Assembly (NCBI GenBank): GCA_902727985.1
Contig: CACVAY010000012.1
Span: 1-48,408, forward strand
DNA from: an uncultured Thiotrichaceae bacterium
GTDB taxonomy: Bacteria; Pseudomonadota; Gammaproteobacteria; Thiotrichales; Thiotrichaceae
Direction of reading: 5' to 3'
DNA: 48,408 nt
The position numbers and the translations under genes were made by a program. A model generated the notes under the pieces. The model saw nothing but the letters and a program-made list of their open reading frames with translations, was not told the DNA's origin and ran no database searches. This document shows, piece after piece, positions 1 through 16,869 of this stretch (its first letter is position 1; every line of letters begins with the position of its first letter).

Positions 1-339
1 TTGGAGTACCTTGATCTGAATAGTGGCTGGGTTTTCGGCTTGTTTCTGAGTGAAGGGATAAAAGCGTAGAGTATGCTGCGATTTTTGGTCTTCGGCATCT
101 TGTGAGGAGAACTGATGCGGAACCGTTTGCCCTTCTGCATTGAAAACACGAATATCGCCAAGATCATTCCGCTCAAGATGTGCCAGTAACGGGGTTGGAA
201 TAGTGACTTCACGTAATGAGTTTTTCGTATCAGACAAGCGAGTGTGCCAAGCAAAATGATCCGGGCTCAAAGTAATATCGCTAGCCCATGCGGGAGCAAT
301 GCATAGCAAGCACATGAGTTTCAGCAATACCTTAGACAT
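1..339 (-). CDS. DUF3999-type exported protein, N-terminal part (runs off the window)
   Basis: Only the first 113 codons are inside the window; the rest lies to the left. The protein starts with a signal peptide (MSKVLLKLMCLLCIAPAWA, then SDITLSP). The exported part that follows has short motifs such as FAWHTRL, RNDLGDIRVFN and VPHQF. These resemble the periplasmic N-terminal region of DUF3999 proteins, which are commonly encoded directly after DUF2339 genes. The ATG (337-339) overlaps the last 8 bases of the DUF2339 gene, so the two are probably cotranscribed and translationally coupled. The function of DUF3999 is unknown; a cell-envelope role with the DUF2339 membrane protein is inferred from the pairing only. 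Confidence 0.7.
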   Translation of the reverse strand, partial: MSKVLLKLMCLLCIAPAWASDITLSPDHFAWHTRLSDTKNSLREVTIPTPLLAHLERNDLGDIRVFNAEGQTVPHQFSSQDAEDQKSQHTLRFYPFTQKQAENPATIQIKVLQ

Positions 340-3088
340 GCGACGTGTCCTGTTCTTCTGGTGTTTGTTCGGTGTTCTCTGGCAAGGGTGCAAAATAGCC
401 GATACTGGTTAGCATCAAGCCTACCACGAGGAAGGAGACGATACGCGCCAAGGTGTCGATCTCTGAGAGGTCGATAAGAAAGAGTTTCGCCACAACCAAA
501 ACTAATAATGCACCACCCACAAACCATATTTGACGCCATTGTTTACGGTTGGCAAATATTGTTAAGAGAACGCCCGTTAATGCCCAGAGAATCGACACGC
601 TACTTTGCACGAGTGCAGAATTAAAGAGGGGGCTGGGTGAGTAAGCGATGCCGAAGTGATGATGGGCAAGGCGGAAAATGGTGATATTAAGCCAGGCAAA
701 GGCCAGCAAGCCGGAAATACTGATGATGGCGATCGGCAGTTTTTCATTCAGGGATGGCAATTGCTCATGATCTTGGATACGTTGCCACCAGTAGAAGAGC
801 GTGACGAGAATCAGCCCTAACAGAATGTCCAGTGGATTGAGTAAGGGGAGCCAAGGTAATGGGGCTGCATCCCCTGAACTGCTGAAGGAGAATAAGCCCC
901 ACACTAACAAAATCATGCATAAAATACTTGAGCTAATGAGTAAGTAGGCATCTTCATGACTCGAAAACGGCCAGATCTTAGCTTTCAGCATAGTCCAGAG
1001 TCCCAGTAAGCTGGGCACAGCGAACCAGGCGAAGAGCCAGTCGTTCGTGATGTTGGCATTATGTCTGATGAGGTGTGTGCCCTCCCAGGTGATTGCTATG
1101 ATCAGCAATAAAGCGGCTGCAATATGTAGAATCGGCTGATATTTGAGAAGAGCTTTTGAAATATCAAGCTGGCGATAACTCCAGTATAAGGTCGCAAATG
1201 CGAATGGCCAAACCAACCACCCTCCGTGGTGGGAAGGAGCATAAGCTTTCTGCGGACTGCCATTAAAATTGCTTAACAACCCAAAGATCATTATTCCCAA
1301 CAAGCCAATAACAAGATACCAGGCATGTTGCCATTCTGGCTTGCTTCGTTTGACAGTGATAACAAAACCGATACTGACCATCGAGGCTAAAAGAATGCTT
1401 GAGGATGTGAGCCATTCGTTGCCAAAGTGACGGAAGACTTGCTGGGTAAAACCATTGAATAGCCAGATTAAACCTGTAATAAGCATGAAGGGGCTTAGTG
1501 TTTCCTCCCAAGCTTTGCGCCCGGCAAAAGGCTTATACAAGATAAAGGCCGATAAAATACTGGCAATAGCCATCATGCAGTAACTAATGAATGGGCTATT
1601 CGCAAACGGCAGCGCTTCTATGTCGCGATGATGAAAGAGTACGAAAAAGCCTGCTGCCGCATACAGTAACAGGCCGAAGCTTCTGACAGAGAGTCGGTTC
1701 TGGCGAGAGCCGAGCCAGATTAGCCCCATGCCTTCAAGTCCCCATGCTGCAGCTGTGTGTGCCGGAGCAAGGGCAAACGGAATGGCAAGTGAGCTGAAAA
1801 TGATGCCTAATGCCAAGAATGCTTCAGCTAACAAGCGGAGTTTTTCGCCCGCCTTTTTCCATATTCCCCACGCTAAGATGAGATAAAACGTCCCCATTGC
1901 CAACGATGAAAATGCTACCCCATATTCTACCTCTTTGATAATGGCGTATTGCATAGCAGAAGCGGCAAGTGGGACGCCGAATAGTAAGGAACCATCAACA
2001 TACCCTTTGAGCTTGGGTGGCTGGCGTAATGCAAATAGCACAGCAATTGCTACATACAGAATAAAGAAAATAATCAGGAAAGGCTCGGTGGTAGAGAACT
2101 TCTCAGGATTGTAGCTAGAGATGCCCCATGCCCCACCGACGACAAAGGTAAAGAGAAACCCCAGTAGATTGAGTGGACGCCATGCTTTGAACCATGCTAC
2201 CGCTAACAAGGCCACGTTGAGAATAATGTAGTAGGAGAATAGTCCAATGTGATTATTTGAGCCGCTCGAAGTCAGAATCGGTGCGAGAAAGCCTCCAGTA
2301 AAGCCCAAGAGGGCCAATGATTGAGCGTTTTGCATGACCGCTAAAGCGGCAGCAAATAAACTGATTAGCAGTAACAGGACGAAAGCGGGTATCGGCTCAA
2401 GTAGATGATACAGGCTGAATGCTGCAAAGATAGTGAGATAGAGGATACCAATCGCTGCACCCTGAATAAGCAGGGAGTATGTGGCTTTCTTTTTTCGGAT
2501 TCGCCAGCCGAAAATGAGCAGTGAAATCGAGCCAATTGCAGTGGCCATTAAGCGATATTCGATTGGAAATAAGCCTTTTTCCGAGACGTAACGGAGTAAG
2601 AAGGATACGCCAAAAAATAATAAGATAATGCCAATACGAACGAATAAATTACCACCAGTAAAATAATTTGTGAGGTAAGACAGTGCTTTTTGTATGAATA
2701 CTGGTTGCTCTTTGTTGATAGCTTGCCAGTCATATGGGGCGCTAGGTGGAGACTTGGTAGCGGCTTCCCGGGGCGTGTTAACGACAGGGCGTGTTGATAC
2801 TGGAGTTACGCTTGAAACCTTGTTTGCTTGATCCTTGGTGTCTGAGCTTACAGTGAGGGCAGATTCTTTGGTGCTACTGGTTTGTTCAGTGTGACTTGTT
2901 GAAGTTTCAAGTGTATTGAGCCGAGAGTTTAAGGTTTGGATATGTTTGTTTAGTGTGCCTATTCGGGCAAAAGCATAGCCAAGAATGCTTGCCAAAAGGA
3001 TAGGTAACCATTCATGAGAGCGATAGCTAAATCCTGTGATGAGCGATGCAGTCAGAAAAAACAGCCCACTAAAAAGTAATGCCTTCAT
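332..3088 (-). CDS. DUF2339 polytopic membrane protein
   Basis: The protein has 918 residues and is almost entirely membrane. A first hydrophobic pair at about residues 3-46 is followed by a short polar, coiled-coil-like stretch (TLNKHIQTLNSRLNTLE) and a Ser/Thr-rich linker to about residue 120. From about residue 140 onward there are some twenty or more consecutive hydrophobic helices, ending in a short acidic tail. The length, the N-terminal coiled coil and the motif FVRIGIILLFFGVSFLLRY match DUF2339 (COG5373) predicted membrane proteins. No catalytic residues are recognisable and the function is unknown. It is the first gene of a two-gene unit with the overlapping DUF3999 gene. It is transcribed divergently from the pseudokinase gene at 3421. 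Confidence 0.85.
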   Translation of the reverse strand: MKALLFSGLFFLTASLITGFSYRSHEWLPILLASILGYAFARIGTLNKHIQTLNSRLNTLETSTSHTEQTSSTKESALTVSSDTKDQANKVSSVTPVSTRPVVNTPREAATKSPPSAPYDWQAINKEQPVFIQKALSYLTNYFTGGNLFVRIGIILLFFGVSFLLRYVSEKGLFPIEYRLMATAIGSISLLIFGWRIRKKKATYSLLIQGAAIGILYLTIFAAFSLYHLLEPIPAFVLLLLISLFAAALAVMQNAQSLALLGFTGGFLAPILTSSGSNNHIGLFSYYIILNVALLAVAWFKAWRPLNLLGFLFTFVVGGAWGISSYNPEKFSTTEPFLIIFFILYVAIAVLFALRQPPKLKGYVDGSLLFGVPLAASAMQYAIIKEVEYGVAFSSLAMGTFYLILAWGIWKKAGEKLRLLAEAFLALGIIFSSLAIPFALAPAHTAAAWGLEGMGLIWLGSRQNRLSVRSFGLLLYAAAGFFVLFHHRDIEALPFANSPFISYCMMAIASILSAFILYKPFAGRKAWEETLSPFMLITGLIWLFNGFTQQVFRHFGNEWLTSSSILLASMVSIGFVITVKRSKPEWQHAWYLVIGLLGIMIFGLLSNFNGSPQKAYAPSHHGGWLVWPFAFATLYWSYRQLDISKALLKYQPILHIAAALLLIIAITWEGTHLIRHNANITNDWLFAWFAVPSLLGLWTMLKAKIWPFSSHEDAYLLISSSILCMILLVWGLFSFSSSGDAAPLPWLPLLNPLDILLGLILVTLFYWWQRIQDHEQLPSLNEKLPIAIISISGLLAFAWLNITIFRLAHHHFGIAYSPSPLFNSALVQSSVSILWALTGVLLTIFANRKQWRQIWFVGGALLVLVVAKLFLIDLSEIDTLARIVSFLVVGLMLTSIGYFAPLPENTEQTPEEQDTSHV

Positions 3089-3420
3089 TATATTCTCGTT
3101 GTTATTGAATACGACAATGGTGTCTTGCTGAGAATGAAGTGATGATGAATTTAGCCTACATATCTCTCAGAAAGTCTGCTGAAAACATCATAACCAGAAA
3201 TGTTCCAAAATACGATTTATGACGTTTATATGGCAGTGCAGAGAATGAGCTTAATCATTTAACTTAAGACGCTGATAATGATATTTAATTAGACCTAGCG
3301 TGAGAAACTCGATAATAATGACCACCATCAGATCTAATGGGATTCGTGGGCTTCATTTTCTAACTGTGTAACCCTCATTATGTTAATCCTAGTAGAACGT
3401 ACCAGTGTCAGGGGCGAAAA
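3089..3420. other. Divergent intergenic region (332 bp)
   Basis: This AT-rich spacer lies between the DUF2339 gene (minus) and the pseudokinase gene (plus) and should carry both promoters. I see no convincing -35/-10 pair, no strong inverted repeat and no small reading frame with a ribosome-binding site. A purine-rich AGGGGCG ends seven bases before the ATG at 3421 and is a reasonable ribosome-binding site for the kinase-like gene. Confidence 0.5.
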
Positions 3421-5199
3421 ATGAACGATTCTCAGTATCTAATTAATGATCAAGCGTTGCCTTTAGGTTATGCGTTTCATGGTTATACGATTACGCAATA
3501 TATTGGTGAAGATGCCTTTAGCATCAGCTACTTGGCTGTTATGGGGGGTGTTAGTGCTGTCTTGATGGAATATTTCCCTCGATCTATTGTTTGGCGTGGA
3601 GAAAATAATGTTGATGTCCTGATAAGAGAGACAGCGGATCAGCGTGAATATGCCCATGGGCTCGCAACTTGTCGTGATGATTTACAAGATTTAGTCCGTT
3701 TTCGTCATCCTCATATATTGGAGACACAAGGCTTTTTTGAAGCCAATAATACCATTTATAGAGTCAGTGAAGATCTTGTAGATCAAGAATGGATAAGTTT
3801 AGAGCGTTGTCTGATGAGGGATAAGCCGCTTTCAGAAGAGGGCATCATGGCGTTGTATAGGCCTTTATTAGATGCTATTGAGGCTGTTCATGCTATTGGG
3901 CATATTCATAGTGACTTAACGCCATCCAGAATTTTGATTCATAAGCAGTCGGGCAAGCCAATGGTGATGGGTTTGGGGGATATGAAATATTTATTCCGAC
4001 CTTCCTCTCAATTACTTTCCAGACATGTATCTCCCGGTTATTCCCCCTGTGAAAATTACTATTTGAATGAAAGCCAAGGTGTCTGGACGGATATTTATAG
4101 CTTAGGTGCAATTCTCTATCGAATATTAACAGGTGATGCCCCCGTGTCTTCTGCGTCGCGTCTTAGCAGTTTGGGAGATCATCAGCTTGATCCTTTGGTC
4201 TGGGCATCCAACTACTTTGAGAATAAGGATGATTATTCTGAACAGCTACTGTTAGCGGCGGATCATGCACTTGCATTACAGAAGCAAGATCGACCATCTT
4301 CGATTGCAGAATGGCGGAAAGTGTTGGGGATTGTCGTTCCTCAGGTCTCTGAAGAAAAAGTGAGTGTGCGGAATCTGTCGATTGCGGGTATTTCAGATGT
4401 CTCTCAGGAATCATCACCCAAGTTGCCAATGGACGCATTAGATTTTACCTCCTCGGTGCAACAGCCTCCTCCCAAAGATGTGTCTTATAAATCTAGAACT
4501 TATGCGCCAGTGGCGATATTTAGCGGTTTAATTAGTGCCATGCTTGTGGGGATTTTTGTGTATTTATCTCCAGCTGAGAATGAGATAGAACCTGAGATTG
4601 TCCCCGAGTTTGAGATGATTACAGATGAAGGCTATGCATCAGAACCAGAAATTGTCGCTGAAGAAGAGACTGTTGCTGAAATAACGGTATATAGTGAGAC
4701 AGATTACCTGCCGATAGAGGATGTACCTTTAGCAAATAATGAGCATCCAGATAATACTGATATTCGTCTACCTTTCTCTGAGTTTATTACGGGTGCAACC
4801 ATAGGTGCTGAGTTTGGCGGTATTGATGCGCTAACCAGGCCTTTAAGTGTAAAAAATTTACTCGACACTATAAACATCGATACCTCAAAAGTTGTTGTGC
4901 TGACAACGGAGGAGTTACAGTTATTACCACTTCTATCGTTACCACCACAGCAACAACAAACAGTGAGTGTTAGACAGAGAAGAGTCAACTCTGCAAAGGC
5001 CGTTTCACGCAGGGCAAATGTACAACACCGTCCAACGAAAAAAACACGAGAACAGTATCAAAAGGAATGGCTAGCCAAGCAGCAACAACTAAAGAATAAA
5101 AATGAGTGGCAGAAGAAAAAGGCGTTGCAGAGAAAGCAGAAAACCCGACAAAATGCTGAACAAATCGAAAGTGAATTGTTGACTGACTCTGATTGGTAA
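3421..5199 (+). CDS. Membrane-anchored protein kinase-like protein, probable pseudokinase
   Basis: Residues 15-305 follow the Hanks-type Ser/Thr kinase pattern of the bacterial group with EYFP after the VAIK lysine: LPLGYAFHGYTITQYIGE at the glycine loop, YSPCENY for the APE region, WTDIYSLGAILYRILTG, and RPSSIAEWRKVL at the end. Key catalytic positions are changed. The VAIK lysine is Met49 (AVLMEYFP). HRDxKPxN reads HSDLTPSR, so Asp165 remains but the lysine and metal-binding Asn are lost. DFG reads GLG (184-186). Phosphotransfer is therefore unlikely and a binding or scaffold role is more plausible (inference). A Ser/Pro-rich linker leads to one membrane helix at about 362-382. Beyond it comes a Glu-rich segment (385-430), then a Gln-run and a Lys/Gln/Arg-rich helical tail (505-580). 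Known kinases of this type have the kinase domain in the cytoplasm and the rest outside. The convergent neighbour is the Cas6-like operon. Confidence 0.8.
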   Translation: MNDSQYLINDQALPLGYAFHGYTITQYIGEDAFSISYLAVMGGVSAVLMEYFPRSIVWRGENNVDVLIRETADQREYAHGLATCRDDLQDLVRFRHPHILETQGFFEANNTIYRVSEDLVDQEWISLERCLMRDKPLSEEGIMALYRPLLDAIEAVHAIGHIHSDLTPSRILIHKQSGKPMVMGLGDMKYLFRPSSQLLSRHVSPGYSPCENYYLNESQGVWTDIYSLGAILYRILTGDAPVSSASRLSSLGDHQLDPLVWASNYFENKDDYSEQLLLAADHALALQKQDRPSSIAEWRKVLGIVVPQVSEEKVSVRNLSIAGISDVSQESSPKLPMDALDFTSSVQQPPPKDVSYKSRTYAPVAIFSGLISAMLVGIFVYLSPAENEIEPEIVPEFEMITDEGYASEPEIVAEEETVAEITVYSETDYLPIEDVPLANNEHPDNTDIRLPFSEFITGATIGAEFGGIDALTRPLSVKNLLDTINIDTSKVVVLTTEELQLLPLLSLPPQQQQTVSVRQRRVNSAKAVSRRANVQHRPTKKTREQYQKEWLAKQQQLKNKNEWQKKKALQRKQKTRQNAEQIESELLTDSDW

Positions 5200-5220
5200 G
5201 CAATCACAGGCTATTTGATA

Positions 5221-5637
5221 TTAAGCATTGAACCATTTTGCTTGGGAGTAGTGTAAGTAAATCCAGGCGACTAGCATACAAAGAGTGCCAGTTATGCCAT
5301 ACGAAACCACGATCCATTGTTGCCATGCTGTATCACTGAGTAAATTATTTCCCATCATGAGATTAACAGCCAGCATCGTGCCAAAGAAGCCAAGCAAAAT
5401 AAGCGTAATAAAGTAATAGGGCTCACTGAGAACACGGCGTAAGAGCATCATCGGAATAATGACAAGGCCCATGATCAAGGATATGCCTGAGAAAGCCATC
5501 GCTGCGTAGGCGAATGCAGTGGTTCCAAATTTAGAATACGTGATGCCACCAAGCAATATACCACCAACGATACCAGCACATATAGCAGCTAGTACCCCGT
5601 GTATGGCATAACTTGAAATAGTATTACTCTGAAGCAT
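5221..5637 (-). CDS. Small four-helix integral membrane protein, coupled to the Cas6-like gene
   Basis: I do not recognise a family. The chosen start (MLQSNTISSYA) gives 138 residues. Its ATG lies inside the last 14 bases of the Cas6-like gene in another frame, so the two are probably translationally coupled. A longer version would extend 23 residues into that gene and looks wrong. Four hydrophobic segments are visible: about 14-32 (glycine-rich), 38-60, 72-92 and 108-128, with few charged residues. The motif GGITYSKFG at the end of the first helix resembles GGGFAYSKFG at the end of the helix in the DUF302 protein upstream on the same strand. Position makes it the last gene of the Cas6-like unit; a membrane-anchoring or effector role would be speculation. 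Confidence 0.7.
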   Translation of the reverse strand: MLQSNTISSYAIHGVLAAICAGIVGGILLGGITYSKFGTTAFAYAAMAFSGISLIMGLVIIPMMLLRRVLSEPYYFITLILLGFFGTMLAVNLMMGNNLLSDTAWQQWIVVSYGITGTLCMLVAWIYLHYSQAKWFNA

Positions 5638-6313
5638 TGAGAGATTTGATGCCTTTGTGCGGAAGGAAAATGCCGCATCCCAACAGGTGTCCGCCACCCA
5701 AGCCATGCTGTTGGATTTTTATGGAAGGATCACTTTCAAGGTCAGCGATCATCAGGTGTCTCGTTGGCAAATCGCCTTCAGGAGTTTTAATAGAGTGGCT
5801 AATACCACAAATCATTTTGCGCATTTTAATGTTTGTGAGGTCGAATATTTCTTTGTGCATACGCGCTAAAAAGGCATTTTCATCTTCGCCCTCAGGGCTC
5901 AAAACGTAGCGAGAGAAAATGACGGAAGCGTTGCTTAATTCACGAGTACGTTCTGTGCCCAGTTTCACCGGACAACCATCGATATCCAGCGTTTGTCCAA
6001 TGAGTGTTTTTACAGCTTCAGCGCGATGTTGTGGAACACGTAAGTACATACGTGTGCGGCGTGAAGGCCATAACCATTGATTCTCAGTATCTTCAGGTCT
6101 TAACCAACCATTACCAGTTTCGGCAACGTGTATTTGATGAGCGCGGAATTTTGGCTCATCTTTTGTCCAAGGTAGCGCATTCTCTATGGCTTGAGAAAGT
6201 GCCCAGGCATGATCAATTGGCAGTTTTTTGCTTTTAATGGCGAAACTGATATCAACAACATCATCGGGGACTTCATACGGTAAGCTTTTATCTTCGTCTT
6301 CTTCCCAAAACAT
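5624..6313 (-). CDS. Cas6/Cmx6-family RNA endonuclease-like protein, outside any CRISPR locus
   Basis: The protein has 229 residues and matches the Cas6 type called Cmx6 (subtype I-MYXAN) along its length. It opens with VVDISFAIKSKKLPIDHAWA (residues 19-38), followed by LPW at 47-49. The middle has RMYLRVP and IDGCPVKLGTER. It ends with the glycine-rich GLGGGHLLGCGIFLPHK (204-220), typical of the RAMP G-loop. His35 is where the family has its conserved, possibly catalytic, histidine. Cas6 enzymes cut CRISPR repeat RNA at hairpins. Here no array, spacer set, or other cas gene is visible, so the substrate is unknown. The ATG follows the stop of the 65-codon gene after one base (TAAGATG), and its end overlaps the membrane-protein gene. 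Family assignment is from memory of the motifs; a profile search (TIGR02807, PF09559) would settle it. Confidence 0.8.
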   Translation of the reverse strand: MFWEEDEDKSLPYEVPDDVVDISFAIKSKKLPIDHAWALSQAIENALPWTKDEPKFRAHQIHVAETGNGWLRPEDTENQWLWPSRRTRMYLRVPQHRAEAVKTLIGQTLDIDGCPVKLGTERTRELSNASVIFSRYVLSPEGEDENAFLARMHKEIFDLTNIKMRKMICGISHSIKTPEGDLPTRHLMIADLESDPSIKIQQHGLGGGHLLGCGIFLPHKGIKSLNASE

Positions 6314-6314
6314 C

Positions 6315-6512
6315 TTATCGTGCTCCGGAAAACGTCATTTCTAGCTCATCGTACCAATTTTCAGGACGGTCATTGTAAGCAGGTGGCTCAATATCCAGGC
6401 TAAAAAACATTTCACCTGATTCAACGGCTTCTTTCACAATAGTTTGTTTCAGTTCATCAAATGTTGAAATATCGTGACCGTGTTTTAATAATAATTCGCT
6501 GAGACTTAGCAT
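6315..6512 (-). CDS. 65-residue conserved-looking small protein upstream of Cas6-like gene
   Basis: No family recognised. The protein is short and acidic with no signal peptide or membrane segment. An N-terminal amphipathic helix (MLSLSELLLKHG) is followed by a helical stretch (FDELKQTIVKEAVESGEMF). It ends in a Pro/Trp/Tyr segment (IEPPAYNDRPENWYDELEM). It lies one base upstream of the Cas6-like start, the tightest spacing in the window. This argues that it is a real gene and a functional partner or translational regulator of that protein. The ATG lacks a good ribosome-binding site, so translation may be weak or depend on leader structure. The upstream 170 nt carry the hairpin at 6619-6668. 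Confidence 0.65.
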   Translation of the reverse strand: MLSLSELLLKHGHDISTFDELKQTIVKEAVESGEMFFSLDIEPPAYNDRPENWYDELEMTFSGAR

Positions 6513-6618
6513 GATCTATCTGGATGGCTTATGTGAATGATTATTGTGTGGGCTGTGAGCTTTTTTTCCAAGTGCCAATGTTTCAAGCATGGAAAAAGAA
6601 TGGTTTATGGGGAGAGGT

Positions 6619-6668
6619 GTTCGAAAGGGGTGGGGGACGTCACGGCAGTTTGTGTGCCGTGACCGAAC
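6619..6668 (-). other. Strong bulged hairpin between DUF302 gene and Cas6-like operon
   Basis: GTCACGGCA (6639-6647) pairs perfectly with TGCCGTGAC (6655-6663) around a 7-nt loop. The pairing resumes further out with GTTCG (6619-6623) against CGAAC (6664-6668). One arm is continuous for 14 nt while the other carries a 15-nt bulge, C-rich on the minus-strand RNA. There is no T-run after the stem on the minus strand, so it is not a standard intrinsic terminator. It sits 14 nt after the DUF302 stop and about 105 nt before the 65-codon gene. It could be a 3' end-protecting or attenuating structure for the uspA-DUF302 message, or a processing site in a longer transcript. Confidence 0.6.
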
Positions 6669-6682
6669 TAGTAGACTACGGT

Positions 6683-7516
6683 TTAAAAATCGCCAGCAGC
6701 GCCACGCGTCATGATAGCTAGCATAACCTCTTTAACTTCAATGGCTTCTTTTTTAAGGTCTTCAGGAAGTGGCTTGCCACCATAAATCATCATATCCATG
6801 TTTAATGCATAGAGAGATACTTTCCCATCTTTACCTTCAACCATAGAAACGCGGCAAGGTAAGTAAGCGGCAAATGCATCGCTGTAATCAACCATCTTCT
6901 TAGCCGTTAATGGATTGCAGAACTGGAAAATCTTAAGTTTACGATGATCTTCGCCTGTCATTGCCGAGATTTGATCAGACAGTGGGAGATCGCCAACGGA
7001 TTTAATATTCATTTCATTTGCAACAGCTTTCATTGCTTCTTCTGCATCATCTGGGCTAACGCCTTCTTCAAGGTCATATTTCCAAACAGTTGCTTCAGCT
7101 GTGTTGCCTGTGTCTTTGAGTTTATTCCACATATCGGTATAAATCTCTTTGGCCTGAGGGTCAAAGGTATCAAACACTTTCATATCAGCCATCATTGAGT
7201 CCATATTTTCCATCATCGACTTAACGGTTTCTGGGTCAAGCGCAGCAAATTTATCAATATTTCCCATCATAGATTCAAGAATTATTGGATCAAGCGCAGC
7301 AAACTTATCTATGTTTCCCATCATTGATTGAATAGTTTTTGGCTCAAGTGCAGAGAACTTGTCCATGTTAGCCATCATGGCCTCTTTGGTTTCAGGTTGC
7401 ATATTGTTGAATGCACTCATTTGGGGTGCCATGCTCCCAAATTTTGAATATGCGAAGCCACCACCTACGATAGCTATGATGCCGATAATGGCCAAAATAT
7501 TACGAATAAAGTTCAC
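6683..7516 (-). CDS. Membrane-anchored DUF302 protein with 18-residue repeats
   Basis: The protein has 277 residues. A single N-terminal hydrophobic helix (about 5-24, ending GGGFAYSKFG) looks like an anchor. A Met-rich region with three tandem 18-residue repeats follows at 47-100. From about 150 a DUF302 domain begins at EEGVSPDDAEEAM and continues through IFQFCNP (Cys200), LPCRVSMVE (Cys221) and LYALNMDMMIYG to the very end MTRGAAGDF. The C-terminal half closely parallels that of the cytochrome c-DUF302 protein at 16870 (FCDP, MPCRISVVED, LNLDMLI, GATGDF). This points to a shared, unknown function in the periplasm; the two cysteines might bind a ligand or form a disulfide (inference). It lies 23 bases downstream of the UspA gene and is probably in its operon. 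Confidence 0.8.
   Translation of the reverse strand: MNFIRNILAIIGIIAIVGGGFAYSKFGSMAPQMSAFNNMQPETKEAMMANMDKFSALEPKTIQSMMGNIDKFAALDPIILESMMGNIDKFAALDPETVKSMMENMDSMMADMKVFDTFDPQAKEIYTDMWNKLKDTGNTAEATVWKYDLEEGVSPDDAEEAMKAVANEMNIKSVGDLPLSDQISAMTGEDHRKLKIFQFCNPLTAKKMVDYSDAFAAYLPCRVSMVEGKDGKVSLYALNMDMMIYGGKPLPEDLKKEAIEVKEVMLAIMTRGAAGDF
7217..7378 (-). repeat. Three tandem 54-bp (18-codon) coding repeats
   Basis: Residues 47-64, 65-82 and 83-100 of the DUF302 protein read MMANMDKFSALEPKTIQS, MMGNIDKFAALDPIILES and MMGNIDKFAALDPETVKS. Diverged partial copies flank them (FNNMQPETKEA before and FDTFDPQAKEI after). The units are in frame and each contains Met-Met, a Phe and a Glu/Asp-Pro turn, so they probably form a helical repeat or a methionine-rich spacer. 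Confidence 0.85.
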
Positions 7517-7539
7517 TGTATTCCTCCAATTTTTTTGAA

Positions 7540-8433
7540 CTAGTCATCAAGTGTCACAGGGGACACAAATTCCTTAGGTTTAACCGTAAGAATCGAGCAT
7601 TCTACGTCATCCATCACCTTTTCGACAGTGTTACCAATGAAGAATCCCTTGATACCGGAGTGAGAAAGCATTCCCATGACTAGCAGGTCAACATCATGTT
7701 TCTTGGTGTTTTCAGTAATAACAGTAGCGACATCACCGATTTCGAGAATGATGTGTTCGTCATCAATGTCGATTTCATTATCAACTAAACAAGATTTGAT
7801 GGTTGCAAACTGGGTCGGTTTTTGGCTCTCATTGGGGGGGATCGATAATACAGACAGCTTACTATGATCGGCGGTTGCAATAGCAACAGCGTCGGCAATA
7901 ATGGCTTCATTGAGGCTTTGGTTATTGATGTCTTCGTGATTGGTGACATCAATGGTTGCCATAACATGTTTGTAAGAACCAGAGTGATCGGGATGGACTG
8001 CCCATACTGGACAGGGTGTTTTGCGGAGTAATTGGCGAGCTGTGCTACCAATAAGTTTGTTTTTTAGGGATCCCGAATCACGTTCAGCAATCATCAAAAG
8101 GTCATGCTCACCACGTATGACTTGTTTAATAATTTCTAAACTGCTGGTTTTACCTGAAGTGGCAATACATTCTACTTCGATACCTTCATCTCTGACGCAA
8201 GCAGCAACGCCCTCTAGCCTTTCTAGGCGCTTGGATAGTTGTAACTCCAAACGTTCTTCTGGTGACATCGCAGAAATTTCCAAGTGCGCATCAGAACGTA
8301 AGTTAGGAATAACCGACATAAAGGTGACTTTAGAGCTGTGGAGTTTTGCGAGGTTCATTGCATGGTCGATTTCAGCTTGCTCGGTCTCTTTGAAATCAAT
8401 GGCAACGAGGATGTTCTTGAAATATTGAATCAT
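7540..8433 (-). CDS. Universal stress protein with two UspA domains (UspE-like)
   Basis: The protein has 297 residues with tandem Usp domains. The first begins FKNILVAIDFKETE and ends around GSTARQLLRKTPCPVWAV. The second starts at YKHVMATIDVT and ends GNTVEKVMDDVECSILTV. Both ends carry the G-S/T phosphate-binding pattern of ATP-binding Usp proteins. The size and double domain match UspE-type proteins, which protect cells under growth arrest and stress in other bacteria. I chose the ATG at 8433 because GGGGT stands just upstream. In-frame ATGs at 8445 and 8472 are possible. A perfect -10 (TATAAT, minus strand) lies at 8462-8467. The DUF302 gene follows after 23 bases. Confidence 0.88.
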   Translation of the reverse strand: MIQYFKNILVAIDFKETEQAEIDHAMNLAKLHSSKVTFMSVIPNLRSDAHLEISAMSPEERLELQLSKRLERLEGVAACVRDEGIEVECIATSGKTSSLEIIKQVIRGEHDLLMIAERDSGSLKNKLIGSTARQLLRKTPCPVWAVHPDHSGSYKHVMATIDVTNHEDINNQSLNEAIIADAVAIATADHSKLSVLSIPPNESQKPTQFATIKSCLVDNEIDIDDEHIILEIGDVATVITENTKKHDVDLLVMGMLSHSGIKGFFIGNTVEKVMDDVECSILTVKPKEFVSPVTLDD

Positions 8434-8461
8434 GGTATACCCCATTCGGCTAGCGTAATTT

Positions 8462-8467
8462 ATTATA
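8462..8467 (-). promoter_or_regulatory. Candidate -10 element for uspA-DUF302
   Basis: The minus strand reads TATAAT, 28 bases before the chosen uspA start. No good -35 stands 16-18 bases upstream (CCCACG region), so if this is the promoter it probably needs an activator. The resulting leader would be about 20 nt, which is short but workable. Confidence 0.35.
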
Positions 8468-8622
8468 ACCACAGAAATTAGCAGCGTGGGGAAAAAATCG
8501 TATTTTGTTTTATGTTCCCGCTTCTTGGCAGGATTATTTAAGAGATTTTTTAGGTATCAGTTTGCGCATTGCAGCGTTTATTCGTACTCTAGCATGAGTT
8601 ATATCAACAATTGAGGCGAATA

Positions 8623-9276
8623 ATGAATCTGGAACAAGCACGTTTTAATATGATTGAGCAACAAGTACGCCCTTGGGATGTACTTGACCCAACCGTTCTA
8701 GATGTGATGCGACGGGTGCCGCGTGAGGCATTTGTCGATAGCCAGAAAATAAAATTAGCCTATGCGGATATCGAGCTTCCTATAGGGCATGGCGAGAGCA
8801 TGATGCACCCTCGTGTTGAGGGACGTATGTTGCAGAGTTTGAACATCACTCCTGATGACCATTGTTTAGAAGTAGGGACAGGGTCTGGGTATATTGCGGC
8901 CTGCCTTGGGTATCTTGGAGCACAAGTGCACAGTATTGATATTCACCAAGACTTTATTGAGCTGGCAGAGCAACGGATCAATAAACAGTACCTTGCGAAT
9001 GTGAAGGTCGAGGTTTGTGATGTTTTTAATGAGCTTGCCGATGATGCACAATATGATGTTATCGCGGTTACCGGTGCGATAGCTGGTTCTACGGAGCAGG
9101 TTGAGAAGCATTTAAAACCTAATGGTCGGATGTTTGTAATTACAGGTGTTGCTCCTGTCATGCAAGCAATGCTGATTGTCAGGGGCGAGGAGAATACATT
9201 CTCGCGGGCAAGTTTGTTTGAAACAAAGCTTCATTATCTAACGGGTGCAGAGCCTGGCCAGACATTTTCATTGTGA
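8623..9276 (+). CDS. Protein-L-isoaspartate O-methyltransferase-like protein (Pcm paralogue upstream of tolC)
   Basis: This SAM-dependent methyltransferase-like protein has 217 residues. It has the Pcm layout: RFNMIEQQVRPWDVLDP at the N-terminus, RVPREAFV, MMHPRVEGRMLQ, then the SAM motif LEVGTGSGYIAACL (residues about 81-94) and VHSIDI. Genes of this type directly before tolC are common in gammaproteobacteria. Whether they repair isoaspartate is doubtful because the substrate loop differs from classical Pcm. The ATG at 8623 has GAGGCG nine bases upstream; an in-frame TTG at 8611 is less likely. A separate promoter before tolC (9310-9338) suggests independent transcription of the two genes. 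Confidence 0.85.
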   Translation: MNLEQARFNMIEQQVRPWDVLDPTVLDVMRRVPREAFVDSQKIKLAYADIELPIGHGESMMHPRVEGRMLQSLNITPDDHCLEVGTGSGYIAACLGYLGAQVHSIDIHQDFIELAEQRINKQYLANVKVEVCDVFNELADDAQYDVIAVTGAIAGSTEQVEKHLKPNGRMFVITGVAPVMQAMLIVRGEENTFSRASLFETKLHYLTGAEPGQTFSL

Positions 9277-9309
9277 TTTTTCGGCATTCTAATTAAATAG
9301 CGTCTATAT

Positions 9310-9338
9310 TTGGCAGAATAATCAATTAGTAGTATATT
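9310..9338 (+). promoter_or_regulatory. Sigma70-type promoter for tolC
   Basis: TTGGCA (9310-9315) and TATATT (9333-9338) are separated by exactly 17 bases and each matches the consensus at five of six positions. Transcription would begin near 9345, giving a leader of about 37 nt to the tolC ATG at 9382. Confidence 0.6.
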
Positions 9339-9381
9339 ATTTTTTCCTAATATTTCGGCGTAGCCGTTGAGAATTACGTGT

Positions 9382-10704
9382 ATGAAAGTGACAGTAAAAC
9401 AGATTTCTTTGGGTGCAATTTTGTTGTCTTGTATGGCAAGTGTGTCTGCAGAGAATTTATTACAAGTTTATAAGCACGCTCTTGATGCTGACCCTACCTT
9501 GAAAGCTGCTGAAGCTGGTTTTTTGGCCACGATGGAAAACAAGCCACAGGCACTGGCTGGTAAAAAGCCTCAGGTGGGGCTTTCAGGAAGCACGAGTTAT
9601 AACCTTCGCAATATCGAAAATACAGCGGCCGATGGAAATTTCGATAATTTCAATATCGGGTATGATTTATCTCTAAGCAAGTCGATTTATAGAAAAGACT
9701 TGGATGCAGCTGTTGACTCTGCGACTGCCGGTGTTGAGCAATCTCGTTCTTTGCTTGAAGTTGAACGTCAGGGTTTAATTATCCGTGTCGCGGATGCTTA
9801 TTTTTCCTACCTTACTGCTCTCGATTCACTTGAATTTGCGCGTTCTGAGAAGCAGGCAATCAACCGTCAGCTGGCACAAGTCAAAGCTTTTTTCGAAGCA
9901 GGGCGTTCTCCGATTACTGATGTCAAAGAAGCGCAGGCGCGTTATGACACTGCGGTTGCTCAAGAGGTCGCGGCAAATGAGCAACTCGATCTTGCCAATG
10001 AGCAGTTAAAAGCTATTACTGGTCGTTATTATAAAAGTCTGGCGCGAGCACCACTGAATACCCCTTTGGCTCCACCTGCACCCAACAAAATTGAGGCGTG
10101 GACGAAAATGGCATTGGAAAACAGCTCTGAAATTAGAGCCTTGAAATATGCTGTAGATGTAGCGCAAGCAGAAGTCGATAGACAGCGGGCAGGAAAAAAA
10201 CCAACCGTTGATCTATTTGCAAAACAAACCGGTAATTTGAATCGGGTTGATATTGATACAGAGCAATTTGATGCGGCAGTTGGCGTGCAATTGAGTGTTC
10301 CTCTTTATCAGGGGGGTGCGATCCCTTCGCGTATTCGTCAGGCACGTCATAATTTACATCAAGCGCAACACCAGTTAGAAGCGCGAAAACGTTTGGTGAA
10401 CCAGCAAGCACGTTCGGCCTATCTTTCAGTGATTTCAGGTATTGCTCAGGTAAAGGCACTTAAGCAAGCGCTTAATTCTTCACAGACAGCTGCTCAAGCC
10501 ACTCAAGCAGGCTTTGAAGTGGGTACGAGAACGGCCGTTGATGTATTGCTATCGTTACGGGAAACCTTTGGTGCTCAGCGTGACTATTCATCAGCACGTT
10601 ATGATTATCTGCTTAATCAGTTGCGTTTAAAACAGGCAGTGGGGACATTGTCAAATAAGGATCTACAAGCCGTTGATAAGGTTCTGACTGTAAAAGCGAA
10701 GTAA
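9382..10704 (+). CDS. tolC: TolC-family outer-membrane efflux/secretion channel
   Basis: The protein has 440 residues, close to E. coli TolC. A signal peptide (MKVTVKQISLGAILLSCMASVSA) is followed by ENLLQVYKHALDADPTLKAA, the typical start of the mature TolC family. Two OEP repeats follow, with the conserved QARYDTAVAQEVAA and the second-half LSVPLYQGGAIPSRI and GFEVGTRTAVDVL. TolC forms the trimeric outer-membrane exit duct for RND efflux pumps and type I secretion. No membrane-fusion or inner-membrane pump gene is adjacent, so it probably serves several systems. I used the ATG at 9382 rather than the in-frame TTG at 9367, because the signal peptide starts there. The upstream gene is the Pcm-like methyltransferase. 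Confidence 0.92.
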   Translation: MKVTVKQISLGAILLSCMASVSAENLLQVYKHALDADPTLKAAEAGFLATMENKPQALAGKKPQVGLSGSTSYNLRNIENTAADGNFDNFNIGYDLSLSKSIYRKDLDAAVDSATAGVEQSRSLLEVERQGLIIRVADAYFSYLTALDSLEFARSEKQAINRQLAQVKAFFEAGRSPITDVKEAQARYDTAVAQEVAANEQLDLANEQLKAITGRYYKSLARAPLNTPLAPPAPNKIEAWTKMALENSSEIRALKYAVDVAQAEVDRQRAGKKPTVDLFAKQTGNLNRVDIDTEQFDAAVGVQLSVPLYQGGAIPSRIRQARHNLHQAQHQLEARKRLVNQQARSAYLSVISGIAQVKALKQALNSSQTAAQATQAGFEVGTRTAVDVLLSLRETFGAQRDYSSARYDYLLNQLRLKQAVGTLSNKDLQAVDKVLTVKAK

Positions 10705-11011
10705 TAGGTCGCGAGGCTCAACTTCTCCCTCCATTCTTAAGTGTATAGGCCATTTGTTCAAAGATGGCTGAACGCTTGTTCTATCCCCTGAAAAAGGGGC
10801 AGACTCTATTTATACAACCCGGTTTTAGTTGAGCAGATTCAGTAATCGCTGAAGAAAATCGGCGATGAGTTTTCATAAAACAAGCCGATAGAAGAAATCA
10901 CAGCGGCTAAGAATAAAATGGGCTATGTATTAAGGGTGATGTGAAGGATGGGTTCGACAGAAAGTAGCAGTATGACAAAAGCTACAAGTCGGATTGCAAA
11001 GGGAGAAAGTT
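10705..11011. other. Intergenic region after tolC (307 bp)
   Basis: This spacer contains a weak hairpin CCCCT-GAAAA-AGGGG (10785-10799) without a T-run, and GCCAT/ATGGC arms near 10749-10768. Neither is a convincing terminator. No small gene is supported. A ribosome-binding site GGAG (11002-11005) lies six bases before the GTG at 11012. Confidence 0.4.
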
Positions 11012-11605
11012 GTGAAAAAAATAATGTTATTCATTAGCCTGTGTTTCGGTTTGGCTAATGTTTCTGGATTTGCAGACGCAGTACTCTATGAGGTGACGCA
11101 TATGGCGGATAATGATTCACTGAACATCAGAGTTCAGCCAGGTATTCAACACGAAGTGGCCTTTACGCTCGACCCAAGAGCAGGCAATGTCAAAGTTATT
11201 GATTCTAAAAAAATATCAGGAACAACATGGGCGCGTATTGACTGGTATGGTAAAGATGGTTGGGTAAATCAGTATTATTTGCAACAAGCAACCGCTAAAG
11301 AGAGAAACGCCTTGTATTGTAATGGCACAGAACCCTTTTGGAGTATTCAGGCAACAGGGGTTAATGTAAAAGTCGATATATTAGGGCAGGATGTTTTTAA
11401 TGCAGTCGTTGGGTATTGGGGGAAGCCGCATAACTCGGGGTCCTATACAAAAGTCGTTAGTGCCCGAGATGATGCACACTCAGTTGTCCTTATTGCGGAA
11501 CAATCAATTTGTAATGATGGTATGTCTGAGAAGCTCTATGATCATTCTGTGATTGCGCTGATTGATCATCGAGAGAGTTACTCTGGTTGTTGCGTAATGC
11601 GCTAA
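11012..11605 (+). CDS. Secreted protein with SH3-like domain and COG3650-like C-terminal domain
   Basis: The protein has 197 residues from a GTG start with GGAG upstream; an ATG at 11024 and a TTG at 10994 are alternatives. A signal peptide (VKKIMLFISLCFGLANVSGFADA) precedes a bacterial SH3-like segment (about 30-90: LNIRVQPGIQHEVAFTLDP, WARIDWYGKDGWVNQYYL). The C-terminal half has the spaced motifs YCNGTEPFWSIQ and SICNDGMSEKLYDHSV and ends SGCCVMR. This pattern (CxGTEPFW, CxDGMSD, GCC) is what I associate with COG3650 uncharacterised envelope proteins. The paired cysteines suggest disulfides in the periplasm. Function unknown. It stands alone and is convergent with the HIT gene. Confidence 0.7.
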   Translation: MKKIMLFISLCFGLANVSGFADAVLYEVTHMADNDSLNIRVQPGIQHEVAFTLDPRAGNVKVIDSKKISGTTWARIDWYGKDGWVNQYYLQQATAKERNALYCNGTEPFWSIQATGVNVKVDILGQDVFNAVVGYWGKPHNSGSYTKVVSARDDAHSVVLIAEQSICNDGMSEKLYDHSVIALIDHRESYSGCCVMR

Positions 11606-11633
11606 GGATTAACTTAGCAAGTAAGCTGCTGTT

Positions 11634-11996
11634 TTAGAGCTTGGGAACCAGATTGCTGATAAAAATGTCAAAATTTGCGGTGTGAACGTTTCCTTCTCGC
11701 TGTTTCTCCCCCCACATTGGCTCGGGAAAATAACTATCCGTTTTGAAACGCGCCATGATGTGCCAATGCACATGCGGTAAGTAGTTGGCGAAAGACGCGA
11801 TATTGATCTTTTCGGGTTTAAAATACGCAATCATTTCTTTTTCAATGATATCGAGTAACCGAAAGATTTCTTGTCGCGTATCAGCATCACAATCAGAAAA
11901 TTCTTTGTGCGTCTCTTGTGTGAAGATTTTCAACCAGGGAATTTCTGAAGTTTCTACTTCAATATAAACGTGAGCATTCTGGTAAATAGGTTTCAT
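11634..11996 (-). CDS. HIT-family nucleotide hydrolase/transferase
   Basis: The protein has 120 residues. The diagnostic histidine triad HVHWHIM is at about 75-81, preceded by NIASFANYLPHVHW, and an N-terminal strand reads AHVYIEVETSEIPWLKIF. HIT proteins hydrolyse Ap4A or nucleoside phosphoramidates through the central histidine. The N-terminal YIEVETSEIPWLKIF pattern resembles the group annotated as diadenosine tetraphosphate hydrolases rather than HinT. It has no signal peptide and is cytoplasmic. The stop lies 28 bases from the convergent SH3-domain gene; the gene at 12035 follows upstream on the same strand after 38 bases, so the two may share a transcript. Confidence 0.85.
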   Translation of the reverse strand: MKPIYQNAHVYIEVETSEIPWLKIFTQETHKEFSDCDADTRQEIFRLLDIIEKEMIAYFKPEKINIASFANYLPHVHWHIMARFKTDSYFPEPMWGEKQREGNVHTANFDIFISNLVPKL

Positions 11997-12034
11997 ACCC
12001 CGATCATAAAGTGTTTATGCCTTACCGAAAATGA

Positions 12035-12451
12035 TTATTCATCAATTTTGACACTGTACTGAATAATGGTCGCTTGTTCTGTTGTAGGGTGTAGTTCCTT
12101 GAGCGTCATGCGCAAGGTGTCTCCGTCCTGCTCAGGGTGTTGTTGAATAGAGTAAGTGACTTTTTGAGGAGGTTGATCGTTTATGATGAGAAGAGGTGTT
12201 TGTTGCAAATGGGTATACTGAGGAATCTTACTGACAATAGAGAGATTGCGTAATACCTCAGGGAATGTGTTGCTAAGATGAATCTGATATTGAATACAGC
12301 CATCAGGAATAGTGATATCGGTGTTGGTGTAATTATTGCTGCATGAGGAATCCGTCATCTGCAGGAGTCTAATCGTTAGTGGTTCAGCTTGGTTTGAATA
12401 AGCATTAATCGTACTGCTGAGCAATAAGATGAAAAGTGATGCACGTAACAT
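12035..12451 (-). CDS. Secreted protein with a DUF11-like fold
   Basis: I cannot place this in a named family with certainty. The chosen ATG (MLRASLFILLLSSTINAYS) yields a signal peptide and 138 residues; an upstream ATG at 12484 would add 11 residues before the signal sequence. The mature part is Thr/Gln-rich. A segment CIQYQIHLSNTFPEVLRNLS, then IVSKIPQYTHL, recalls DUF11-type domains in which a beta-sandwich describes a relation between N-F/T-x and P-x-x-T. One cysteine pair (SSCSNN and DGCIQY) could form a disulfide. It sits directly upstream of the HIT gene and divergently from the TauE gene. Role unknown. Confidence 0.55.
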   Translation of the reverse strand: MLRASLFILLLSSTINAYSNQAEPLTIRLLQMTDSSCSNNYTNTDITIPDGCIQYQIHLSNTFPEVLRNLSIVSKIPQYTHLQQTPLLIINDQPPQKVTYSIQQHPEQDGDTLRMTLKELHPTTEQATIIQYSVKIDE

Positions 12452-12634
12452 GTGGCTTCTCCCGATAATAGATACGCAGAACATGTCAGCTTCTTCTGGA
12501 TTCTTCGATAGGAATAATGACCACTGCCGCGTATTATTTGGCTAAATGATGGGCGTATGAAAAATGCCTGTGAAAAGTGAGAGCCTGTATAACGTTAGGC
12601 TCCACTTACTAGCTTCTTCTGGATGAGAGTCTTT

Positions 12635-13423
12635 ATGGAATTTTTACTGTATGCGCTAACAGGTGTTATGGCGGGTTTTTTAGCGGGTTTACTGGGGGTC
12701 GGTGGAGGTTTAGTCATCGTACCTGCCTTGTTTGCCATCTACTCAGGTCTTGGCTACGAAAATACTCATTTGATGCATCTCGCATTGGGAACCTCTTTAG
12801 CGACGATTATTTTCACCTCCATTTCATCGGTGTGGGCACATCACAAGCGTGGTGCTGTGCAATGGGATGCCGTGATTCGTTTATCCCCAGGCATTGTCAT
12901 TGGTGCATGGATAGGTGCGTTGATTGCCAAGTATCTGCCTTCAGAAAACTTACAGTGGATTTTCGGTATCTTTGAGTTGTATGTGGCAACACAAATGCTG
13001 TTCGCGATTAAGCCTGCGCCTCATCGCTCACTACCTGGAAATGCAGGAATGTTCGCAGCAGGAAGCGGAATCGGTGCAGTCTCATCCATTGTTGGCATTG
13101 GTGGTGGCACTCTAACCGTCCCATTTCTAAGCTGGTGCAATATCGTGATGCAAAAAGCGGTAGCAAGCTCGGCAGCATGTGGTTTACCCATAGCAGTAGC
13201 TGGAGCCGTTGGCTATGTTGTTGTTGGCTGGGGGGCTGAAGGGTTACCCGCGCAAAGCTTAGGCTATGTCCATCTACCTTCCATGCTGGGTGTAGCAGTG
13301 GCGAGCGTTTTGCTTGCTCCGCTTGGCGCAAAGCTTGCACATCAGTTACCCGCACAGACACTAAAACGCGTATTTGCCGTCGTGCTATATCTTATTGCGG
13401 GATATATGTTGCTTGGTATGTAG
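12635..13423 (+). CDS. TauE/SafE-family sulfite/organic-acid exporter permease
   Basis: The protein has 262 residues and about eight membrane helices in two halves. Each half carries the family GVGGG signature: LAGLLGVGGGLVIVPALF near the N-terminus and VSSIVGIGGGTLTVPFL around 150. TauE/SafE proteins export sulfite, sulfoacetate or other small anions in a few studied cases; the substrate here is unknown. The start at 12635 is supported by GATGAGAG 4-11 bases upstream; an ATG at 12623 in the same frame is also possible. It has no transport partner nearby, and the small acidic gene at 13534 follows 110 bases later. Confidence 0.88.
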   Translation: MEFLLYALTGVMAGFLAGLLGVGGGLVIVPALFAIYSGLGYENTHLMHLALGTSLATIIFTSISSVWAHHKRGAVQWDAVIRLSPGIVIGAWIGALIAKYLPSENLQWIFGIFELYVATQMLFAIKPAPHRSLPGNAGMFAAGSGIGAVSSIVGIGGGTLTVPFLSWCNIVMQKAVASSAACGLPIAVAGAVGYVVVGWGAEGLPAQSLGYVHLPSMLGVAVASVLLAPLGAKLAHQLPAQTLKRVFAVVLYLIAGYMLLGM

Positions 13424-13533
13424 AGGAAGTGACTGGCCTTATTGTTAAGATTTTTTCAAGCAACAAGGGCTTTTGCCTAAATAATGCGTCTCTGTATACT
13501 TGCCTGCAATTGTTCAACTATAGATGAGTCATC

Positions 13534-13791
13534 ATGCCCAACATAGATTCCCAGAGTATCGAGACCTGTATCCAATCCATTACACAGCATATTCAGGAAG
13601 ATGAGGTTAAATCCTTGGTTTCCGCGCTAGAGGCATTACAGCAAGAACCCCAAAATGAGTCCTACTTTGAGCAGTTTTCAGAAGCCTTTAATAATCTTGG
13701 AGCAACGCAGGGGGCGGTATTAACCTATGCGCCGTATTTGATGGTCATCATGGCGGATGATCCGTTTGATATGCTTGGAGACGATGATTGA
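13534..13791 (+). CDS. Small acidic hypothetical protein (85 residues)
   Basis: No family recognised. The sequence is soluble and strongly acidic. It has helical stretches (IETCIQSITQHIQEDEVKSL and FEQFSEAFNNLGATQGAVL), a hydrophobic patch (YAPYLMVIM) and an acidic tail ending DDPFDMLGDDD. The reading frame is clean from an ATG that follows TGAGTCATC. Composition and codon use resemble those of its neighbours, so I take it as a real gene. It lies between the TauE gene and the convergent nfsA, with no evidence of an operon. Confidence 0.6.
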   Translation: MPNIDSQSIETCIQSITQHIQEDEVKSLVSALEALQQEPQNESYFEQFSEAFNNLGATQGAVLTYAPYLMVIMADDPFDMLGDDD

Positions 13792-13831
13792 AGGTTTTTT
13801 CTTCGCCTTGAGACTTCGGTGTATTGATATC

Positions 13832-14569
13832 TCATCGCATTTTAAAACCCTGGCTTTCCAAAAATGCTTTCATATGCGGGCGTGATTCTTTACCCAATAA
13901 CTCCGCCATCTGCTCGCTCCACCCCATTTGTTTGATATTACTACTACGGTTTTTATAGTATTCACGCATCAGATCATCGTATTCGGCAATCGCTTCTTTT
14001 TCATCCTTATTCCCATAAGTCTCTTCTTTAAGAACGATATCGACAGGCAGCCGTGGTTTTGTTTCAGGTGATTGATCAGGATACCCTAGACAAAGCCCAA
14101 ACACGGGGTAAACATGCTCAGGTAATTCGAGCAACTCAGTGTACTCAGCCGGATGGTTACGAATCCCGCCGATATAACAAATGCCTAGCCCTAAAGACTC
14201 AGCGGCAACCACAGCAGTTTGTGCCATCAACGCAACATCGGTAGTAGCAATAATGAATTGCTCGGTAAAGCCAGAAAGCATCTCCTTCTCATGCATATCA
14301 CAACACACCTCGGCACGATGGAGGTCTGCACAGAACATCAAAAATACTGGCGCTGATGTGACATAGGGTTGATTACCCGCAAGTTCCGCCATTTTATTTC
14401 GCGTATCTTGATTGCGCACGCGGATCACGGTGCATGCCTGTACAAAATTGGATGATGCTGTACATTGCGCTGCGCTGATAATCGTTTTTACAATATCATC
14501 CTCGATGGGGTCAGCTTTAAAGTTACGGATTGAGGTATGAAATTGGAGAAGGCGGATCGTGTCGTTCAT
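13832..14569 (-). CDS. nfsA: Oxygen-insensitive NADPH nitroreductase NfsA
   Basis: The protein has 245 residues, the usual size of NfsA. Conserved blocks are HTSIRNFKADPI at the start, the FMN-binding TASSNFVQACTVIRV, the LMAQTAVVAAESLGLGICYIGG segment split by short variable parts, VFGLCLGYPDQSPETKPRLP, and KESRPHMKAFLESQGF at the C-terminus. The same blocks occur in E. coli NfsA. The enzyme transfers two electrons from NADPH through FMN to nitroaromatics and quinones in the cytoplasm. The gene is monocistronic, with divergent space (394 bp) to the lipoprotein gene at 14964. Confidence 0.9.
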   Translation of the reverse strand: MNDTIRLLQFHTSIRNFKADPIEDDIVKTIISAAQCTASSNFVQACTVIRVRNQDTRNKMAELAGNQPYVTSAPVFLMFCADLHRAEVCCDMHEKEMLSGFTEQFIIATTDVALMAQTAVVAAESLGLGICYIGGIRNHPAEYTELLELPEHVYPVFGLCLGYPDQSPETKPRLPVDIVLKEETYGNKDEKEAIAEYDDLMREYYKNRSSNIKQMGWSEQMAELLGKESRPHMKAFLESQGFKMR

Positions 14570-16676: not shown

Positions 16677-16690
16677 GTTCTAAAACGAAA

Positions 16691-16716
16691 CTGCCATCTC
16701 TTCAGATGGTGGTTTT
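16691..16716 (+). terminator. Rho-independent terminator after the 570-residue lipoprotein
   Basis: The stem CTGCCATCT / AGATGGTGG (nine pairs, two of them G-U) closes a four-base loop CTTC and runs straight into TTTT. It begins 15 bases after the stop codon. Confidence 0.8.
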
Positions 16717-16828
16717 GCAAGCCTCATATTTCATTATGCGATGAGCTTATTGAATGAAAGTATAGACTTCCTCTTTTTTTAGCCTACATCTTTACTGTGT
16801 TGGCTAGCTGTATATTAAAAGAATATTC

Positions 16829-16860: not shown

Positions 16861-16869
16861 ACTTAAGTT

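Follow-up and report, generated by a model that had tools for sequence, protein, structure and literature searches.

The window (the whole stretch of DNA analyzed here, 48,408 nucleotides from an uncultured Thiotrichaceae bacterium) contains a 592-amino-acid open reading frame (ORF) whose host is related to the sulfur bacterium Thiothrix. The ORF encodes a kinase-fold domain, a transmembrane (TM) segment, an acidic linker, and a basic tail; their coordinates are given in Table 1.

Table 1. Features of the 592-amino-acid ORF, in window coordinates
Feature	Position	Strand	Basis
Whole gene, transmembrane pseudokinase	3421..5199	+	ATG start, 592 aa
PpkA-like kinase-fold domain, probably cytoplasmic, aa 9-302	3445..4326	+	Pfam; PDB sequence match (5hnv); AlphaFold2 model; Z score to 5x1r
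Degenerate glycine loop, Asp31/Ser34 for Gly2/Gly3, common to four genus members	3505..3531	+	Alignment
Met49 at the VAIK lysine	3565..3567	+	Alignment
Catalytic loop HSDLTPSRI, with the HRD Asp but neither Lys nor Asn	3907..3933	+	Alignment
GLG at DFG	3970..3978	+	Alignment
Single TM segment, about aa 363-382	4507..4566	+	Hydropathy; N-in by flanking charge
Acidic, fast-changing, probably periplasmic linker with Gln-run (4948-4959)	4570..4980	+	Resembles orthologue linker no better than shuffles
R..YQ..W..[KQ]Q unit (Y546, W550)	5032..5115	+	Pattern matches, unit alignment, profile
Basic tail, aa 543-588, predicted to form one long helix	5047..5184	+	Single-sequence AlphaFold2; conserved in L048 and L182

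Kinase fold and catalytic residues

Pkinase is the single Pfam domain of the ORF (66.3 bits against a cutoff of 31.7), and a Pfam search at E 0.001 gave no match to PASTA repeats. The top PDB sequence match is PpkA 5hnv (E 7.9e-32, residues 9 to 302). An AlphaFold2 model of residues 1 to 322, made from an input of 55 sequences, has a mean pLDDT of 88.3 and a pTM of 0.86; when it was compared with solved structures (Foldseek plus VIA-align), PpkA 5x1r ranked first (Z 32.8, 2.8 Å, 277 residues), and the next structure below the two PpkA entries reached Z 25.0. The 5hnv and 5x1r structures are of the Serratia protein. Because Pfam, the PDB sequence match, the model, and the structural match to PpkA agree, we consider the kinase fold retained, and the significant domain match together with the modeled fold places the domain among Hanks-type kinases. 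The landmarks by which an earlier note on this DNA had recognized a kinase (YSPCENY, WTDIYSLG, and R291-P292) are genuine and in place, and the structure prediction and alignment that it proposed as a check did yield a kinase fold.

That note had also claimed the loss of the VAIK lysine, the HRD-loop asparagine, and the DFG aspartate, and all three losses hold in an alignment of 133 distinct kinase domains (4 from the genus of the window and 129 others). Met49 lies in a column that holds Lys in 127 of the 129 non-genus rows, the remaining two being gaps. Arg170 replaces the catalytic Asn (HSDLTPSRI versus HRDxKPxNI), which is present in 126 of the 129. Gly184 of GLG stands at the DFG Asp, found in 125 of the 129; the other four are two Asn and two one-residue slips (rows L043 and L045, scored "F"). 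The HRD Asp, present in 126/129 of the non-genus domains, is retained as D165, a refinement of the earlier note, whose title says nothing contrary. It had not listed some further losses: Asp31 and Ser34 take the place of the second and third glycines of the glycine loop, Asp87 stands at the alpha-C Glu, and Thr167 at the catalytic-loop Lys. Thus, by its residues the domain is a pseudokinase: Lys, Asn, and DFG Asp are lost and the HRD Asp is kept, whereas the 129 non-genus domains are mostly intact. Partial losses occur in two Thioploca records, L113:5956-7893 and L121:3914-5851, which are separate pseudokinases with Asn at the HRD Asp, Ser at the catalytic Asn, and NFG at DFG; L113, the only one of the two on which Pfam was run, includes an FGE-sulfatase domain.

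Relatives and the pseudokinase clade

The three closest relatives of the window pseudokinase (L033, L004, and L005) come from two other genomes of the genus. When 63 genomes of the order were scanned with the pseudokinase profile A1, only four genus proteins matched at E 1e-25 or better, in three of the six genus genomes; the pseudokinase was not found in the other three, which are drafts whose gaps may explain its absence. A scan of named genomes with the single window protein found no relative. The four genus members form one clade (support, 99/99) in a tree of 51 domains from which 16 catalytic positions had been removed, and the same clade was recovered at 96 in a quick tree of 65 domains using all positions. 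The branching order inside the clade is unsure because the branches are long: the relatives are 29 to 32% identical to the window protein, and end branches reach 1.97. Gene neighborhoods differ among the four members, so no conserved neighbor names a partner.

The relatives are degenerate as well. In L033, L004, and L005, respectively, the Lys column holds Val, Lys, and Val; the HRD Asp column Asp, Asp, and Ser; the Asn column Thr, Thr, and Ser; and the DFG Asp column His, Asn, and Phe. Across the genus, then, Asn and DFG Asp are lost in all four members and Lys in three, the HRD Asp persists in three, and Gly2/Gly3 are Asp/Ser in all four (elsewhere, Asp occurs in 0/129 and Ser in 3/129). Of 59 columns that are at least 92% conserved in the other domains, 11 are catalytic and 48 are not; the genus four keep 10 of 44 cells in the former and 139 of 192 in the latter (Fisher p 1.6e-9, a value that ignores relatedness). 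Since the genus relatives are degenerate too, form one supported clade, and stand apart from outside domains that are mostly intact, this is, as judged from the alignments and trees, an old pseudokinase clade rather than one decaying gene.

Two alternatives are affected by these data. Species-specific pseudogene decay without any function would account for the substitution of almost every catalytic position, but it is very improbable: open frames persist in four divergent genes, the losses are shared in a supported clade, and the tail described below is conserved. The earlier note had proposed orthologues as the check on decay, and since none in the genus is intact and the relatives are degenerate as well, we set simple decay aside. 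It is also improbable, if not quite to that degree, that a different catalytic chemistry has been kept, as in SelO (AMPylation) or SidJ (glutamylation). Repurposing of pseudokinases in this way is known (PMC12599244), and survival of the HRD Asp in three members and of Lys in one might be read as a trace of it; however, no single one of Lys, HRD Asp, Asn, and DFG Asp is common to all members. L005 has Ser where the window protein has Asp165, the DFG Asp has become G, H, F, or N, and the Lys position reads M, V, V, or K. In the glycine loop, Asp31 would be unfavorable for phosphates.

Membrane topology, tail, and the shared unit

Lys and Arg residues precede the TM segment, in the window protein as in its relatives, and a strongly acidic D/E stretch follows it; this charge pattern probably puts the N terminus inside and the tail outside. 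In the wider family it is common for a TM segment to come after the kinase domain, as hydropathy indicates for 7 of 10 inspected relatives. The acidic stretch, Gln-run (QQQQ), and basic tail that the earlier note had placed beyond the membrane are all present. The linker (aa 384 to 520) has 28 D/E and 6 K/R, and an orthologue of 659 aa (L048, genome G003) has a linker with the same counts, yet the two cannot be aligned. The tail, with 19 K/R and 8 D/E in 72 aa, does align with that of L048: the score of 116 exceeds the maximum of 80 obtained in 500 composition-keeping shuffles. AlphaFold2 applied to the tail (window:4900-5196) gave ten-residue block means of 91 to 96 over most of the helix.

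Kinase domain and tail can part. L033 (382 aa) stops just past the TM segment and has no tail, and L004 is truncated by a contig end. Conversely, a 278-aa ORF in genome G004 (L182:1489-2325, minus strand) consists of a short N terminus, a TM segment, and the tail, without a kinase domain or any Pfam match. Its tail scored against the window and L048 tails as none of 500 shuffles did, whereas the score was reached by 39 to 434 of 500 shuffles for its N-terminal part and by 201 and 277 of 500 for the linker, so that neither part clearly resembles the pseudokinases. This arrangement bears on a reading in which function resides in the tail, and the kinase domain is a dying relic on a membrane-anchored periplasmic murein accessory protein. 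We regard that reading as unlikely, though it deserves more weight than the two above: besides the kinase-less protein, G004 has no A1 match at E 1e-25 or better even though other kinases are present there, and the divergence of the clade is very high. Standing against it, the conserved noncatalytic cells are largely kept, the AlphaFold2 model of the domain is confident, and L033 has retained the kinase domain and TM segment while it is the tail that is missing.

The tail contains a short unit that recurs elsewhere in the order. A DNA pattern for YQxxWxx[KQ]Q had 72 matches in the 63 genomes, compared with 13 for the same pattern read backwards, a control that differs in codon makeup (both totals are summed from a table). 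Eight of the 72 are near-identical, belong to one genus (g2), and by their DNA are probably one gene. We inspected 37 of the matches, in 35 loci; the window's own is among the other 35. The match lay in frame in an ORF of at least 100 aa in 17 of the 35 loci and did not do so in the remaining 18. Proteins with in-frame matches include SLT-LysM proteins, PBP4 (Peptidase_S13), MltB (SLT_2), a DUF1287 lipoprotein, one lipoprotein without a Pfam match, and one exported ankyrin protein. In the background set, 79 loci with 620,117 residues of six-frame ORFs, the pattern had no match.

From these proteins we built a profile, A5, of 20 units, 15 of which fit the pattern and 5 of which do not; the latter were added by eye because they follow a first unit, as second or third copies, in these proteins. 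Four of the 17 in-frame proteins were left out (the FtsI-like L210 and L228, and L224 and L233, which lack an export signal); none of them has R or K seven residues before the Trp. The 20 units align without gaps, and 18 have R or K at that −7 position, which lies outside the pattern; the proportion is 13/15 for the pattern-fitting units and 13/19 when the four excluded proteins are counted. Profile A5 matched 19 of the 63 genomes in 28 rows, all in envelope-looking proteins: pseudokinase or TM-tail proteins (5), PBP4 (6), SLT-LysM (5), MltB (5), an unnamed lipoprotein (2), TolA-like (2), DUF1287 (1), ankyrin (1), and FtsI-like (1). SLT-LysM, MltB, or PBP4 thus account for 16 of the 28. Identities come from Pfam for L188, L201, L225, L247, and L251, and the others were assigned by eye as orthologues; "FtsI-like" and "TolA-like" are likewise names given by eye (Pfam gives only TonB_2 for L252), and both TolA-like matches are weak (E 0.0025 and 0.0076). 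A5 also picked up proteins absent from its build set, among them the PBP4 of both G062 and G008 and the MltB of G072. Across 369 genomes drawn from the class, A5 matched twice, in the window and once outside the family (E 0.0095), and two further family members in that draw had no match. The restriction of the unit to the family is partly circular, because A5 was built from proteins of that same family, and the unit is short and charged.

The unit occupies charged stretches in PBP4 (L201, L247, and L249), MltB (L225, L226, and L251), SLT-LysM proteins (L188, L190, L186, and L213), the DUF1287 protein L223, and L215 and L216; L225 and L226 have tandem units 17 residues apart. In MltB, PBP4, SLT-LysM, and (weakly) TolA-like proteins of the family, this R..YQ..W unit lies outside the catalytic domain, and these proteins are otherwise unrelated to the window pseudokinase. 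On this sequence evidence, the tail is more than a stray basic stretch: its conservation, and the presence of its unit in murein enzymes, suggest a partner outside the membrane besides the inside one.

Proposed function and comparison with known systems

PpkA is an active type VI secretion system (T6SS) kinase. PMC12607579 describes it as such in Acidovorax and adds that, in Acidovorax citrulli, it recruits components and forms condensates. The N-terminal kinase domain of PpkA (5hnv/5x1r) is the closest solved relative of the window domain in both sequence and fold, which is one reason to ask whether the window protein is a PpkA-type T6SS regulator that lost its activity; another is that VipB occurs in G002, the genome that holds two of the four pseudokinase members. 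This reading is nonetheless quite improbable. The window protein has lost the catalytic set that PpkA keeps intact, a search for VipB (PF05943) came up empty in the draft genome of the window (99% complete) and in four of the five other genus genomes, and we recognized no T6SS gene by eye among the window ORFs listed. With VipB unmatched in these genomes, the part that PpkA plays in the T6SS probably does not apply here, and we set the regulator reading aside; as the genomes are drafts, a missing T6SS, pseudokinase, or tail may be an assembly gap.

The reading that we favor, and to which we give about an even chance, is that the protein is a noncatalytic transmembrane scaffold docked to peptidoglycan or to murein-remodeling machinery. 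It draws on the fold, the losses, the clade, the topology signal, tail conservation, and the sharing of the unit with envelope enzymes, all of them read from sequence, and we infer from these that the protein binds no ATP, has a partner inside the cell, and docks to the wall. In such a scaffold, the PpkA-like cytoplasmic fold would have lost nucleotide and metal binding and been kept for protein-protein binding; the single TM segment and flexible acidic linker would bring the basic helix into the periplasm, where its basic and aromatic residues could dock to peptidoglycan or the machinery that remodels it. The protein might then position, or report on, cell wall machinery across the inner membrane without phosphotransfer. 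The earlier note had suggested a scaffold or a sensor that binds a partner inside, an idea that fits our findings. Several observations count against a scaffold: three of four members retain the HRD Asp and one retains Lys, four in-frame pattern matches in other proteins lack the flanking R, no neighbor is conserved, tail and kinase domain are separable, and the pseudokinase is not universal, since none was found in three of six genus genomes (drafts).

Parts of this layout are familiar. The PASTA kinases PknB and StkP, which are active, combine a cytoplasmic kinase fold, a TM segment, and a wall-facing outer part; the window protein is like them in layout and has no PASTA match. The mycobacterial MviN/FhaA complex ties a pseudokinase, itself part of the larger MviN protein, to cell wall synthesis. 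It resembles the role proposed here, but its pseudokinase belongs to the actinobacterial ActPs3 family (PMC12599244). The best model for how the window protein might work, by analogy, is EssB/YukC of T7SSb, described as a membrane-spanning cytoplasmic pseudokinase with all three motifs and the glycine loop degraded and with a scaffold role (PMC12599244); EssB/YukC is, unlike the window protein, a component of Firmicutes secretion. Also described there is the proteobacterial GLW pseudokinase family, with a C-terminal TM segment, GLW at HRD, and an LLLL/W motif at the lysine (PMC12599244). These motifs are absent from the window protein, which has HSD and VLM instead.

More tentatively than for the scaffold itself, we suggest that, in this Thiothrix-related family, the R..YQ..W..[KQ]Q helix may be an envelope-targeting module not described before, borne by murein hydrolases, PBP4, and (weakly) TolA-like proteins. 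In the lineage of the window, it would have been linked through the TM segment to a PpkA-like pseudokinase, making a Gram-negative coupler between cytoplasm and wall remodeling. We found no report on a Thiothrix pseudokinase, on the pseudokinase clade, or on the tail unit in the titles and abstract beginnings of the openly licensed literature. Bacterial pseudokinases are numerous and few have a known job. The tail unit offers an independent handle on function: it singles out a defined group of envelope proteins among related bacteria and therefore yields a testable prediction, that the tail binds the wall or its enzymes. The protein would also illustrate how a PpkA-type kinase can become a noncatalytic connector.

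As for the surroundings of the gene, a Cas6/Cmx6 of type I-MYXAN lies at window 5624-6313 on the minus strand (TIGR02807, 105.2 bits; Pfam Cas6, 184.3 bits), and the only ORF between it and the pseudokinase is a small, overlapping membrane ORF (5221-5706). No other cas gene was recognized by eye in the window, no CRISPR array near Cas6 appeared among the 20 largest of 28 repeat families (at least 20 nt, window 1-20000), and Rfam at gathering cutoffs gave nothing in the window. Apart from the pseudokinase, the genome of the window has a single PF00069 match, L001:1432-2346 on the minus strand, which keeps HRDLKPSN and DCG and adjoins a gene that by eye resembles a type II secretion component. 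Genome G078, of the same family, has ten PpkA-like kinase matches, five each on contigs C29 and C76. Finally, two minus-strand window genes (6683-7516 and 16870-18042) have a C-terminal DUF302 in common, and the second also has cytochrome c domains.
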